This document shows positions 21,649 through 26,393 of a DNA stretch of 29,539 nucleotides, piece by piece. How positions within the stretch are numbered: the stretch's first letter is position 1; each line of letters begins with the position of its first letter. The translations under genes were made by a program, and so were the position numbers. Source of the stretch: a virus; IMG/VR virus record IMGVR_UViG_3300032093_000612, positions 1-29,539 of that record, one strand, 5' to 3'. The notes under the pieces were generated by a model that did no database searches, was not told the DNA's origin, and worked only from the letters and a program-made list of their open reading frames with translations.

Positions 21649-22763
21649 ACTAATTTTTCCTTAAAGTCATCTTTTAAACTAATAGATGTAATTGCAAACA
21701 TATCATTTTCACCGTGATTTTTAATAAACTCTAAGATTTCATTTTTAAATAATCCTAAAATTTCTTTATTCATAGTTCCTCTGTTAAAACATGGTCTAAT
21801 TACATGCATTATGTTATTACGATAAAAATAACTGATATCTATACTCCATTCTTTCTTACAATAGTTTCTTAGATTCTTATAACTAACGTGTTTACTAGCT
21901 GAGATATCATTAAAACTATGTTTAGATGCTAATAAAAGAATATAAAACATAGACTCTTCATAATTATAGTTACATAATAATTCCAAAGCTACTTCAGCAT
22001 TCTGATAATTACTAAACATTTGGTTTAATCTTGTATAACCTTCATGATCAATAGTTTTATTACCATTACACTGTTCAATAAGAGTTTTTTCATCAATCAA
22101 ATCAGTATTTGTATTTTTAATATTCTGTGTAAGATTATTATAAACATCACCTTTAAAAAATCTCATTTGTATAGAAACATCACTTACTTCTAAATCATCT
22201 TCAGGTATACTATACAAATCACAAAATTTTGCAATTAAGTTTCTTACTCTATAAGGAACTAAAACTTTATCATTATTAATTGATGCTATTTTACTTTTAA
22301 CTTCAGTTATAAAAGTTTTTAGCTTAACTTCTTGTGAATAGTCAGGATCATTCTCTATTAAATCTAAAAGCTTAATAAATGTATCTACACGTATAGTTTC
22401 ATAATAATAATTAATTTTCTCTGTTGTCTCATCTATGAATGCTTGTGTGTTAATTATAATTTTAGTAGCTTTATCTATATTTCTTACAATATCAAATCCC
22501 ACATCTTTACCAAGTTCTCTAACTTTAAATCTTGGGATGGTAACACCGGGAAGGAAGTAGATTTTATCTCCCTTCCCTAGTTTATTGTTTGAAATATTTA
22601 GATTATCTAAATCTGAGTCTTCAAATATTATTTTTTCATAAATATTCATTTCTTCAGATAAAAATGCTACTGCTTCATTTTTATGATTTTTAAAATTATA
22701 AACACTAGTTAAATTATTTAATTGATAATGACTAGTGGTTAAGAGCTCTAAAATATTTTGCAT
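21645..22763 (-). CDS. hypothetical protein (372 aa) between MoxR and nuclease
   Basis: Unrecognised. A segment at about 64-104 (DKIYFLPGVTIPRFKVRELG, then ...NIDKATKIIINT) looks like a compact beta-alpha unit. The rest is mostly helical and Asn/Lys rich. There is no membrane helix. It begins two bases after the MoxR-type gene and overlaps the nuclease start by four, so its product is expected with both. It could be a substrate or scaffold for the MoxR/VWA pair, but that is inference from gene order alone. Confidence 0.7.
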   Translation of the reverse strand: MQNILELLTTSHYQLNNLTSVYNFKNHKNEAVAFLSEEMNIYEKIIFEDSDLDNLNISNNKLGKGDKIYFLPGVTIPRFKVRELGKDVGFDIVRNIDKATKIIINTQAFIDETTEKINYYYETIRVDTFIKLLDLIENDPDYSQEVKLKTFITEVKSKIASINNDKVLVPYRVRNLIAKFCDLYSIPEDDLEVSDVSIQMRFFKGDVYNNLTQNIKNTNTDLIDEKTLIEQCNGNKTIDHEGYTRLNQMFSNYQNAEVALELLCNYNYEESMFYILLLASKHSFNDISASKHVSYKNLRNYCKKEWSIDISYFYRNNIMHVIRPCFNRGTMNKEILGLFKNEILEFIKNHGENDMFAITSISLKDDFKEKLV

Positions 22764-22765
22764 AA

Positions 22766-23521
22766 TTATTTTACTGTGTATTCTACAACTTTATCGTTTA
22801 ACAATAGTTTCTGAAACTTTTGCTTGTTACCATTAATAAGATTTCTTACAATCATATATTTCAAGTCAACAGCAAATAGATCATCAACAATTAATTTTTC
22901 AATTCTTTTAATTTGTACATCTTTAACAGGATTGGTTTTGAAATAGTTAAGAGCATAGTTTACAATCCTAGTACTAAAGATACTAGCAATGTCTGCTCTA
23001 TAATTTTCTCCTTTACCAATACTTGCATTTAACTGACCAATAACATATTGCTCACTGTCATTAAACAATACATCATGTGGTGAAATTAATTTATCAAGTT
23101 TGTTATTAATAAACATAGTAAATAATTGACTCATCTCTGGACCAACACTACCCTCACCAAGCATTTGAATCATAGCAAGGTTTTCTTCAAAGCTTTCAAA
23201 GCTTGAAATACTATTAAAGAAAGTAGTAATTGCACGCGGGTTAGTTTTCTCTGTTACAATCTCAGGATGCTTAATAATAAAATTAATACATCTGCCATCT
23301 ATACCAGCTTCTTCTGCCCACTCAGCCCAGCAGTTTACATCAAATTTTAATTCACAAGATACAAATCTGGTTGTTTGTGCTGTATCCATAGATTGTACAT
23401 TATACTCACCATTATCAGGATTAGTGGTAAGAATAATAGTCCAGTCTTTTGGTAACTGCCAAGAGATATACTTTTGAGTATTGATTAAATCCATGCATGC
23501 TTGTAACATTCTAGGGTCCGC
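22766..23521 (-). CDS. MoxR-type AAA+ ATPase, exon 2 (C-terminal part)
   Basis: This is the second exon of the intron-split ATPase, joined to 24784-25212. It encodes 251 residues starting at ADPRMLQACMDLINTQKYI, the continuation of the Walker B helix. Sensor 1 is WTIILTTNPDN, followed by MDTAQTTRF, where an Arg (TTRF) is placed like an arginine finger. An ATG at 23524-23522 would make this look like an independent 252-residue gene, but that ATG is the last three bases of the intron and the resulting protein would lack Walker A and B. Exon joining at 24784/23521 keeps frame (CGT|GCG, Arg-Ala) and gives 394 residues. Confidence 0.88.
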   Translation of the reverse strand, partial: ADPRMLQACMDLINTQKYISWQLPKDWTIILTTNPDNGEYNVQSMDTAQTTRFVSCELKFDVNCWAEWAEEAGIDGRCINFIIKHPEIVTEKTNPRAITTFFNSISSFESFEENLAMIQMLGEGSVGPEMSQLFTMFINNKLDKLISPHDVLFNDSEQYVIGQLNASIGKGENYRADIASIFSTRIVNYALNYFKTNPVKDVQIKRIEKLIVDDLFAVDLKYMIVRNLINGNKQKFQKLLLNDKVVEYTVK

Positions 23522-23593
23522 CATTTTGTTATCCTATAGGCTCTTTATCCTATAGATCTATATATTACTATATAGTTCAGACTATATCATCAA

Positions 23594-24733
23594 TCAAATT
23601 AGATCCCAAAAATTATCACTTATTATCTGACTAAATTCAGAATTAAGTGGTTTTTGATTATCTATAAATGATTGCAGGGCACTCGTGTCAACATTACTGT
23701 CCTCAGCATTACCTGTTAGGACTCGGTTGTTAGTCGTTGAACCTTCAAGAGTATTACTACTCAAGCTTGGCTGCTGATTGTCCTCATTTGTAGGAGTTTC
23801 CAGCAATTCACCCTGTTTTAAACGCGCATCGGACCAGATGCTTTCTTTATAAATTTTTCTTTCACCTTTTATTACCCTCATTATATATAAGGTTTTAAAA
23901 CCTAAAACTTTAGAAATTTCAGATGTACTATTCCATAAAATTTTAGTACCATCTTTTTTTTCTTCTAGTACAGGAAAGTTTTTTGTTCCTGTATATATAA
24001 TGTTGTTTTTTTCTTCATAACTGTAAATAAATTTATCTTTTACACTATAGTTTGTATTTTTTGCAGCACTTGATATAATAGCTGATAATGAATTGATATT
24101 ATCACCATCTTCTAATATATATTTTGCAGCATCAACAATTGAATTAAAAGTCTTAATTTTTTTACCAAGTTTTGTATACATGGTAATTTTTTTAATTTTA
24201 GAAAATTTACTGTTATTATTATAACTAATATTTTCTTTTTTTATATAAGACCATTGAAATCCACCTGCTGATTTATAAAGTTTTCCTCTACAGCAAGCTG
24301 ATATACTAGAACTTTCTAAATTATAGAATCTAGCAGCTTCACTTGCGGATGGAAAATACCCTATATAATCACCATTTAAACTATATTGATAAACTATTTT
24401 AGATTGTGTTTTAGAATTTGTTTGTGTTACAGGATCCATTTTAGAGTTAAGATCTGGTGATAAAGTATCAATCCAGTATTTTTCTCTATGTAATCTTATA
24501 TCTTCAGAACATTCTTCTAATAAACAATAAGCACATTTGTTAATACTATACTTATTAAATCTATTTTGCATATATCTATTTTCATGCTTAGATTTTTTAA
24601 GTTTTAATATATGTGCTCTTAATCTTTGTTTTACATTTAAAGAACTACCTACATACATATGTTCATTTATTTTTATTAAATAAATTCCAGATGTATTTAA
24701 GCTTTTTGGAATAATAGACTTGAAAGAATTCAT
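23594..24733 (-). CDS. GIY-YIG homing endonuclease inside the group I intron
   Basis: This encodes 379 residues. The GIY-YIG nuclease domain occupies 15-96: SGIYLI (15-20), YVGSS (27-31), R39 in QRLRAH, E84 in REKYWIDTL and N96. All expected catalytic residues are present. DNA-recognition repeats of NUMOD type follow, for example VYQYSLNGDYIGYFPSASEA from about 114, with more NUMOD-like repeats to about 300. The protein should cut intron-less MoxR alleles near the insertion site and drive intron spread. The gene begins in the P1 loop. From S301-R304 it reads through the P10/guide bases and then most of the ribozyme core, so its last 75 or so residues are dictated by RNA structure. A hairpin covers its start codon. 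Confidence 0.93.
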   Translation of the reverse strand: MNSFKSIIPKSLNTSGIYLIKINEHMYVGSSLNVKQRLRAHILKLKKSKHENRYMQNRFNKYSINKCAYCLLEECSEDIRLHREKYWIDTLSPDLNSKMDPVTQTNSKTQSKIVYQYSLNGDYIGYFPSASEAARFYNLESSSISACCRGKLYKSAGGFQWSYIKKENISYNNNSKFSKIKKITMYTKLGKKIKTFNSIVDAAKYILEDGDNINSLSAIISSAAKNTNYSVKDKFIYSYEEKNNIIYTGTKNFPVLEEKKDGTKILWNSTSEISKVLGFKTLYIMRVIKGERKIYKESIWSDARLKQGELLETPTNEDNQQPSLSSNTLEGSTTNNRVLTGNAEDSNVDTSALQSFIDNQKPLNSEFSQIISDNFWDLI

Positions 24734-24750
24734 CCTACAAATATAGGATG
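24731..24750 (-). promoter_or_regulatory. hairpin sequestering the endonuclease start codon
   Basis: CATCCTA-TATTTG-TAGGATG is a perfect 7-bp hairpin, and its last three bases are the ATG of the GIY-YIG gene, with AGG immediately before. In the unspliced RNA this would hide the start. Homing endonucleases of T4 introns use comparable hairpins to block early translation. The same role is inferred here. Confidence 0.55.
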
Positions 24751-24783
24751 TTTTATTTTAGAAAGCAATTATTTTTTTATTTT

Positions 24784-25212
24784 ACGCGTATAATCATCCA
24801 GTAAAAGTATCCCAGACTCACCTTTATCAGCAATCCACTCTGGTGGGCAATATGTAGTCCTTCTTTTACCTGTAAGCTTAAAACCAGCTTTTACACCCAA
24901 CTCAGCCTCTATCTCAGTAACCCATTTCTTTTGAGTGATAGCACCATTCTCTATCTTAGCCAATTCCAATTCTTTCATTGGAAAACCAATCAAGTCTGAT
25001 AACTCTTCTATCATTGCAAGATTCAACTTTACAAAGTGCATACCTTCTTCTTTTGCAAGTTGTTCTACCATTGTGGTCTTACCAAGACCAGCATTACCCA
25101 TAATATTTAAAGCAGTGGGAACTTTACCACCGTTCTGAATAAATCTATTGTTGTTAATGAAATGCTTAACAAAACCTTTTAACTCTTTTGTGTTTAATTT
25201 TACTTGTGCCAT
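24784..25212 (-). CDS. MoxR-type AAA+ ATPase, exon 1 (N-terminal part)
   Basis: Exon 1 encodes 143 residues. Walker A is GNAGLGKTT (39-47). Walker B is ILLLDD (135-140), and the exon ends DDYTR. Read without splicing, the frame runs four codons into the intron (KIKK) and stops. Joined to 23521-22766 it gives a 394-residue MoxR-family ATPase, a ring-forming chaperone-like motor. MoxR proteins commonly work with a VWA-domain partner that inserts metal centres or remodels complexes. Here the VWA gene lies 11 bases upstream. The intron sits right after the Walker B helix, a highly conserved site of the kind intron endonucleases favour. Confidence 0.9.
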
Positions 25213-25223
25213 GTTTTTAATTT

Positions 25224-26393
25224 TTAATTTAGTTGGATTTGTGAACCGGGCAATTGTTGATTAGGTGTACCATTTGTGGAAATAACCCACAACATTTTGC
25301 CTCTTGGTGTAATACTAGTAGTACATTCACCGTCTGTTAAATAAACTAAGGATGTGTAGATGTGAGTATTACTATTATAATACTCTAGTATAGGGTCAAA
25401 TTCTGTACCCCCTCTACCATAAATTGTTATATCCTTTCTAGGATTATATTTAGAGATGTCTCGGATTTCTGTATCACACTGTGCTACAGTTAATTCCGTT
25501 CCTGCTCTATGCAGGTGATATATTTCATTAAGAAATTCTTTAACTTCAGTATCACTAACTGAACCTGAAGTATCTATTGCAACCAAGATATGTTTCTTGG
25601 GTTTAAATTTCATTGCCGGAAAATCCGGAAATCTCTTGTTAAATTTCTTTCTAGATGTTCTTGTCTCTACCTGATAACTGTTACCTATAAAGTTCCTAAT
25701 ATATTTACGCCAATCAAACTTTGGAGGCTCCGGATTTGTAATCCTATGATATATATTAGAAATCTCTCCAGGTAAATACCCTCTTGCTTTAATCACTTCT
25801 TCTGCAGCTTCACGTATTTGATATTCTGCTTGTGCTGTCATTAATCTTTTTTCAGCTTCAGACATATTATCAAATTCTTTCCATGTTTCATGCATGTCTT
25901 CATCACCTAGTGCATCAAGTAAATCTTGTAAACCACCACCACAATTACCATTACGATTATTATTTTCTTGATCTTTAAGAAGTTCATTGTAATAATAATC
26001 AGTTCCGGCTTTAAGTTTTAAATTTAACTCAGGAAATGTACTAGGAAGAATTGCACCTTCTGGAAGTAAGTGCTGAGGAATATATTGATTTAACTCACAA
26101 TCTGCAGCTATATTAAACAGTCTAAAGTCACCATAGCTATTTCTCAAATTAATATGATCAAAAACTATATGTAAAACTTCATGCCATAGTAAGCCTTTTC
26201 TGTGATCATTACTCAAACTATTCCAGAAATCAGGGTTAATTACAAGCTTGTAATTAATATTTTGTCTACTGACACCTGCTGTGGGTACAGCTTTACCAAA
26301 TTCCTTATTCAAACCAATAAGGAACAGACCATAAAATGGTTGTTCTAGCATCAACTCTTTAGAGATGATTGCTAGCTCTTCATGTTTGTTCAT
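25224..26393 (-). CDS. VWA-domain protein with N-terminal metallopeptidase-like domain
   Basis: This encodes 389 residues. The N-terminal domain has LLWHEVLHIVFDH (68-80; H71, E72, H75) and NIAADCELNQYIP (94-106), where D98/E100 are third-ligand candidates, a zincin-like pair known from the DUF2201/VWA-like family. A linker with an acidic, Asn/Gly-rich segment (140-180) follows. The VWA-like domain starts IDTSGSVSD with the MIDAS motif D274-T-S-G-S278. TELTVAQCDTEI and VYLTDGECTTS continue the fold. It precedes the MoxR-type ATPase gene, the classic MoxR/VWA arrangement, so the two should form a complex. The target in a phage is unknown. Confidence 0.88.
   Translation of the reverse strand: MNKHEELAIISKELMLEQPFYGLFLIGLNKEFGKAVPTAGVSRQNINYKLVINPDFWNSLSNDHRKGLLWHEVLHIVFDHINLRNSYGDFRLFNIAADCELNQYIPQHLLPEGAILPSTFPELNLKLKAGTDYYYNELLKDQENNNRNGNCGGGLQDLLDALGDEDMHETWKEFDNMSEAEKRLMTAQAEYQIREAAEEVIKARGYLPGEISNIYHRITNPEPPKFDWRKYIRNFIGNSYQVETRTSRKKFNKRFPDFPAMKFKPKKHILVAIDTSGSVSDTEVKEFLNEIYHLHRAGTELTVAQCDTEIRDISKYNPRKDITIYGRGGTEFDPILEYYNSNTHIYTSLVYLTDGECTTSITPRGKMLWVISTNGTPNQQLPGSQIQLN

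Follow-up and report, generated by a model that had tools for sequence, protein, structure and literature searches.

A group I intron with a putative homing endonuclease gene in the MoxR-type ATPase gene of a phage

How can a phage obtain a complete ATPase from a gene whose two halves lie in separate reading frames? The question is raised by the window studied here, a 29,539-nt stretch that makes up IMG/VR virus record IMGVR_UViG_3300032093_000612, on the minus strand of which a preliminary description recognized a MoxR-type ATPase gene split by a group I intron. In this study, we consider it about 95% probable that the insert is a mobile group I intron, that it would be spliced to give the mRNA of a 394-residue ATPase, and that it would spread by endonuclease-driven homing.

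The interrupted ATPase gene

The two exons (Table 1) join in frame after the codon for Arg143 to encode a protein of 394 residues. Walker A (GNAGLGKT, residues 39 to 46) and Walker B (ILLLDD, residues 135 to 140) are both encoded by exon 1, and the PHROG ATPase profile phrog_1297 is matched contiguously, from 16 to 108 by exon 1 and from 111 to 282 by exon 2. Intron-less IMG/VR homologues that are 75% identical over residues 1 to 394 (L002 to L005) continue straight across the junction, as the proposed split of one gene implies; many more homologues exist at lower identity, and the residues around the junction (R143-A144-D145) are invariant in ten aligned proteins. Furthermore, dN/dS between an intron-bearing relative (L353) and the intron-less L002 is approximately 0.04 in both exons; therefore, the interrupted gene is under purifying selection.

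The protein has Walker A and B, sensor 1, and a MoxR-type fold, and its Walker motifs are conserved together with T(T/S)NPD and TRF. In a Foldseek search with a model of the intron-less L002 protein (pLDDT, 77), NorQ (E = 9e-8) and CbbQ2 were among the best solved matches, with TM-scores of about 0.4 by query length, and the best fold matches included NorQ-NorD VWA complexes. A VWA protein is the usual type of partner of a MoxR ATPase, and an intact DUF2201 VWA gene adjoins the ATPase gene upstream. The protein thus resembles the MoxR, NorQ, and CbbQ ATPases in its fold matches and its VWA neighbor; however, it differs from them in matching the curated MoxR profile (PF07726, AAA_3) at only 21.4 bits, below the cutoff of 27. 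For this reason, the ATPase is best regarded as a divergent MoxR relative, a label that stands for fold and gene neighborhood and not for profile membership. Two other MoxR homologues (L243 and L266) carry a lysine- and glutamate-rich insert of approximately 70 to 100 residues near residues 87 to 100; these inserts are in-frame protein extensions, and the two genes were ruled out as intron-interrupted candidates.

Alignment with the homologues delimits the insert as 1,262 nt, preceded by a 5' exon that ends in T and itself ending in G. The Infernal search of the minus strand matched the Rfam group I intron model RF00028 over its full length at positions 23558 to 23898, with a score of 90.3 bits against a cutoff of 50 bits; introns at two other positions in homologous genes, designated 145 and 42 below, scored 74.8 to 90.9 and 76.9 bits, respectively. 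When cmscan was run over the whole window or over 2.6 kb (22700 to 25300), the 23558 to 23898 intron was not reported, whereas shorter or slightly different stretches returned it at 90 bits. Given that the three runs that did detect it gave concordant scores, the misses in the two longer stretches were taken for a filter effect of cmscan, and they caution against trusting a single cmscan run. As judged from its sequence, the insert is an ordinary group I intron of the mobile type, with a putative homing endonuclease gene. The intron call of the preliminary description therefore stood, but the endonuclease gene within the insert had gone unmentioned.

Table 1. Features of the interrupted ATPase locus, in window coordinates
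Feature	Coordinates	Strand	Remarks
Exon 1, MoxR-type ATPase, residues 1-143	24784..25212	-	Translation, phrog_1297 profile, intron-less homologues
Exon 2, residues 144-394 and stop	22766..23521	-	phrog_1297 profile directly continuing exon 1
Group I intron, 1262 nt	23522..24783	-	RF00028 match; boundaries from homologue alignment, exon-end U, intron-end G, P1, P10
Putative GIY-YIG/NUMOD homing endonuclease gene, 379 codons	23594..24733	-	In P1 loop; last part shared with P10 strand, guide, and core as far as P8
Predicted Bacteroidetes-type promoter, TTG-N20-TATATTTG	24738..24768	-	Ends 4 nt before endonuclease ATG
Hairpin CATCCTAT-ATTT-GTAGGATG	24731..24750	-	Over endonuclease start codon; fold z-score -2.3, 84-nt stretch
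P1 exon strand ACGCGT	24784..24789	-	Guide pairing, U-G at 5' splice site
P1 guide strand GCGCGT	23822..23827	-	16 nt before GTGAA, a spacing common to most relatives
P10 intron strand GGTCCG	23830..23835	-	Pairs with exon-2 CGGACC
P10 exon-2 strand CGGACC	23515..23520	-	6 bp with GGTCCG
P3 5' strand CAGGG	23811..23815	-	100% paired in 39 introns; 4 of 5 pairs changed on both sides
P3 3' strand CCCTG	23675..23679	-	Partner of CAGGG
P4 5' strand TTGCTG	23801..23806	-	99% paired; 4 pairs changed on both sides
P4 3' strand CAGCAG	23771..23776	-	Partner of TTGCTG
P7 5' strand GACTA	23731..23735	-	100% paired; 2 pairs changed on both sides; Rfam alignment
P7 3' strand TAGTC	23580..23584	-	Partner of GACTA; Rfam alignment
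P8, CAATCA (23674-23669) with TGATTG (23596-23591)	23591..23674	-	99% paired; 5 pairs changed on both sides
P9 hairpin CTATATA/TATATAG	23558..23575	-	91% paired; 5 pairs changed on both sides
P9.1 hairpin CTATAGG/CCTATAG	23534..23555	-	100% paired; 6 pairs changed on both sides
VWA/metallopeptidase-like gene (DUF2201), intact	25224..26393	-	PF13203, E = 5e-18; PF09967, E = 4e-16

Splice-site pairings and core helices in related introns

A search with exon 2 alone revealed further MoxR genes that are themselves interrupted, and a search with an endonuclease alignment added at least 78 loci, every one flanked by MoxR exons; the latter search returned the best 80 of 178 confirmed matches, and its patterns were derived from the endonucleases of MoxR introns, which biases it toward them. 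Searches with exact core patterns found introns in other genes and none in MoxR. In all, at least 94 group I introns, 39 after dereplication at 95%, were mapped in homologous phage MoxR genes, with the junctions placed by homologue alignment at five positions, which are named for the preceding codon. Position 145 holds at least 64 introns; position 42, at least 23, inside codon 43 and within Walker A; position 154, at least 4, inside codon 155; and position 73, at least 2. Position 143, directly behind Walker B and six bases from position 145, is occupied by the window intron alone among the introns mapped. At least seven loci have two introns in one MoxR gene (L279, L280, L283, L285, L287, L321, and L322). 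A supposed intron at codon 151 (L298) was rejected on inspection, which places it at position 145. One position-145 intron (L350) was left out of the mapping; it has a larger insert, of 1.5 kb, in which the usual P3 anchor GTGAAYT was not found, and it may represent a second insertion or a decayed intron.

The preliminary description had also held that the splice sites were predictable from a guide and a P10 strand, and the rules that it applied hold in the relatives. Among the 39 introns, each guide pairs with its own exon over 6 to 8 bp (mean, 6.8), compared with an average of 1.5 bp for guides exchanged between positions; at position 154, where the pairing falls one base beyond the range of the script, it was determined by eye. 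Likewise, P10 averages 7.3 bp for an intron's own exon and 2.6 bp after swapping, although at position 42 it is weaker in most rows, at about 4 bp. At position 42, exon changes among T, A, and G are matched by guide changes among A, T, and C (CTGGGCT/GGTCCAG, CAGGGCT/GGTCCTG, and CGGGGCT/GGTTCCG). Because position 143 comes from one contig, the proposed P1 and P10 of the window intron are argued by analogy with the other positions and from their own 6 and 6 pairs, the U-G pair included.

In the 39 aligned cores, which are many related rows and not independent events, P3, P4, P7, P8, P9, and P9.1 are 91 to 100% paired, and 26 of their 36 pairs have changed on both sides; sliding the partners by one or two columns gave much lower pairing values. 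The P7 strands are those named in the preliminary description. The candidate P7.1 (GTCCT/AGGAC), part of the extension between P7 and P3 that would be expected of the phage-type subgroup IA2, is 77% paired, with four pairs changed on both sides, and P6a was not recovered in this alignment. The loop of P8 contains the end of the endonuclease reading frame.

These data suggest how splicing would proceed. In the precursor RNA, the exon end ACGCGU would pair with the guide approximately 950 nt downstream to form P1, leaving the endonuclease gene in a loop; the core (P3 to P8, P7.1, P9, and P9.1) would catalyze two transesterifications, started by an external guanosine; and P10 would align exon 2, so that the joined mRNA encodes the 394-residue ATPase.

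It can also be envisioned that the intron no longer splices and that the gene is translated as two separate halves, the second starting at ATG GCG GAC. If unspliced, exon 1 continues TR-KIKK-stop, ending four codons into the insert, and an in-frame ATG preceded by an A-rich stretch lies at the very 3' end of the intron (23524 to 23522). That ATG, however, belongs to a conserved 3'-terminal sequence of these introns. Where the intron occupies position 42 or 154, the ATG does not share the frame of exon 2, and a stop soon follows (ATG TGG TAA or ATG TGG AAA, ATG TGT GGA TAG), and some position-145 introns end in TTG. Together with the intact, covarying core helices and the purifying selection on both exons, these features make translation as two halves very unlikely, and splicing remains the preferred reading.

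The intron-encoded endonuclease and its predicted expression

The product of the reading frame within the intron matches GIY-YIG (PF01541; E = 7.5e-8), NUMOD1 (E = 1.4e-7), and I-HmuI_NUMOD-like (E = 5e-10) domains, and the residues that match the GIY-YIG active site (G16, I17, Y18, Y27, G29, R37, H41, E84, and N96) are invariant in its relatives. No close relatives were found for the endonuclease of the window itself, in contrast to the search with the alignment of endonucleases from the other positions. The reading frame begins 50 nt inside the intron, and the distance from the 5' splice site to the guide places the endonuclease gene in the P1 loop.

At the 5' end of the intron, the layout TTG-N20-TATATTTG-TAGG-ATG leads from the predicted promoter to the endonuclease start. 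A -7 box of the form TAnnTTT[GA] lies no more than 14 nt from the endonuclease ATG in 35 of the 39 introns, where shuffled sequences would give 3%, the rows again not being independent, and it is present at all five intron positions. It is therefore probable, as far as sequence can indicate, that the endonuclease is expressed from a Bacteroidetes-type promoter of its own; the position of the box predicts a near-leaderless mRNA, and the promoter type points to a phage host in the Bacteroidetes. In the window, the -7 box sits within the hairpin that covers the endonuclease start codon.

A comparable arrangement exists in the T4 td intron, which interrupts the thymidylate synthase gene, has a subgroup IA core with P7.1, and encodes the GIY-YIG endonuclease I-TevI; there, a hairpin with a promoter inside it covers the endonuclease start. 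The window intron resembles the td intron in its candidate P7.1, GIY-YIG endonuclease, and predicted start hairpin with promoter; in contrast, the td endonuclease gene lies in the P6 loop and that of the window in the P1 loop. By analogy with I-TevI, the hairpin may hide the endonuclease start in read-through precursor RNA, and the intron's own transcript would leave the start free. Upon coinfection, the GIY-YIG endonuclease would then cut intron-less alleles of the same gene, into which the intron would be copied.

The window is part of a metagenomic data set, a single contig of 29.5 kb, and position 143 was seen in this contig only among the introns mapped; hence, one might suppose that a dead intron disrupts the ATPase gene and that the contig represents either a defective phage or an artifact of assembly. 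Many loci, in many samples, have introns built in this way at the other positions, and in the window the core, exons, and endonuclease frame are open and conserved, so that we regard a dead intron as extremely improbable compared with a functional mobile one.

Origin of the intron and invasion of phage MoxR genes

The P1-loop layout is not new, since the crAssphage dUTPase intron (Carjivirus communis, BK010471.1, KP06_gp34/gp35) likewise has its endonuclease gene between the 5' splice site and the guide. Its guide lies 16 nt before GTGAA and forms 7 bp (exon AGACTAT, guide GTAGTCT), and its endonuclease tail enters the core as in the window, the translated core stretch being 71% identical; it differs in its dUTPase host gene and HNH-type endonuclease. 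In a quick core tree (226 columns), the window core fell in a group of five with the crAssphage dUTPase intron, its nearest named core, and with DnaB-like helicase, RIIA-like, and glutamine-amidotransferase introns (SH-aLRT, 95), apart from the position-145 introns. On this basis, the window intron probably arrived independently, which is the simplest reading; the alternative, a position-145 intron shifted by six bases, is spoken against by the same tree.

The endonuclease tree unites the position-145 genes in a single clade (100/96) and the position-42 genes in another (99/96), as would be expected if homing is site specific. The window gene joins a position-154 pair (96/92), but the branches are long and the join may be false. 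The nearest annotated endonuclease (38% identity over 160 residues) belongs to the GIY-YIG introns of Crassvirales DnaB helicase genes (Kolpuevirus 'frurule' OQ198718.1, cr111_1, and PhiCrAssBcn18), where it lies beside or between helicase fragments; these introns differ in their host gene and in forming a separate endonuclease clade.

Near relatives include stages of the homing cycle: an empty allele (L002), a filled allele (L353), and an allele with the endonuclease deleted and the core kept (L365). The last (RFPL01000031.1) lies on a contig binned as a Sphingomonadaceae metagenome-assembled genome, with a phage-like MoxR gene and an intron at position 145 that has lost an internal part of its endonuclease gene; it is probably a misbinned phage contig.

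The DUF2201 VWA gene is interrupted in many relatives (L206:470-1574, L279, L308, L328, L353, and others) as well. The inserts lie near residues 73, 98, and 329 and contain LAGLIDADG-like or other open reading frames; their group I matches were weak, at 26.5 and 18.3 bits, and below the cutoff. In L206, the insert resembles a group I intron whose reading frame falls between the P4 and P7 strands and not in P1.

In crAss-like and jumbo gut phages, endonuclease-bearing introns of group I are common (PMC7886860 and PMC12363816), as they are in Bastillevirinae, in which the type of intron and the type of nuclease are likewise decoupled (PMC11878797). The closest published host is ATP_43b of Delta-group crAss-like phages, likewise a phage AAA-domain ATPase gene and likened here by its description; introns in the MCP, PolB, and primase genes are listed beside it (PMC7886860). 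A tblastn search at 1e-5 with the window ATPase matched no named crAss-like record. For comparison, 74 exons downstream of other phage introns with a core of this type most often matched major head proteins in PHROG, and MoxR is absent from the 25 PHROG families listed for them. The suspicion that a MoxR host gene is unusual is thus fair for phage introns generally, but the window is not a lone case: on the mapped sequences, the phage MoxR gene is a recurrent target at five positions, and the invasions appear to be independent. No report of a MoxR host gene for group I introns was found in the open-licence literature, which does not prove that none exists. The mechanism and kind of element are textbook; what is new is the MoxR-type host gene and its recurrence as a target.

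What maintains these introns may be asked separately. Such introns might be kept as a switch, in which GTP-requiring splicing delays or conditions ATPase production and so serves the phage and not only the intron. For introns in energy-linked genes of Bastillevirinae, a switch of this kind has been put forward (PMC11878797); moreover, inserts recur in both the ATPase gene and the adjoining VWA gene, and L365 retained its intron after losing the endonuclease gene. An essential switch is disfavored, however, because most homologues in the sample are without an intron (a mapped one occurs in 15 of the 80 loci that match exon 2 best), and homing accounts for the pattern without a switch. We therefore consider the switch improbable and retain homing as the explanation.

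A further suggestion, offered tentatively as a minority possibility, is that the MoxR-VWA gene pair of this phage lineage is a battleground on which unrelated introns with distinct endonucleases settle at adjacent positions, such as 143 and 145, each destroying the target of the other. If so, an intron would shield its own phage from a rival endonuclease during coinfection, as has been reported for the PhiPA3 intron endonuclease (PMC11620839).

In conclusion, a MoxR-type ATPase gene can be added to the genes in which phage group I introns are known, and annotation pipelines would otherwise present such a gene as two truncated ATPases. The empty, filled, and endonuclease-deleted alleles of close relatives form a good natural series in which the homing cycle, target-site shifts, and the mutual exclusion of neighboring introns could be followed.
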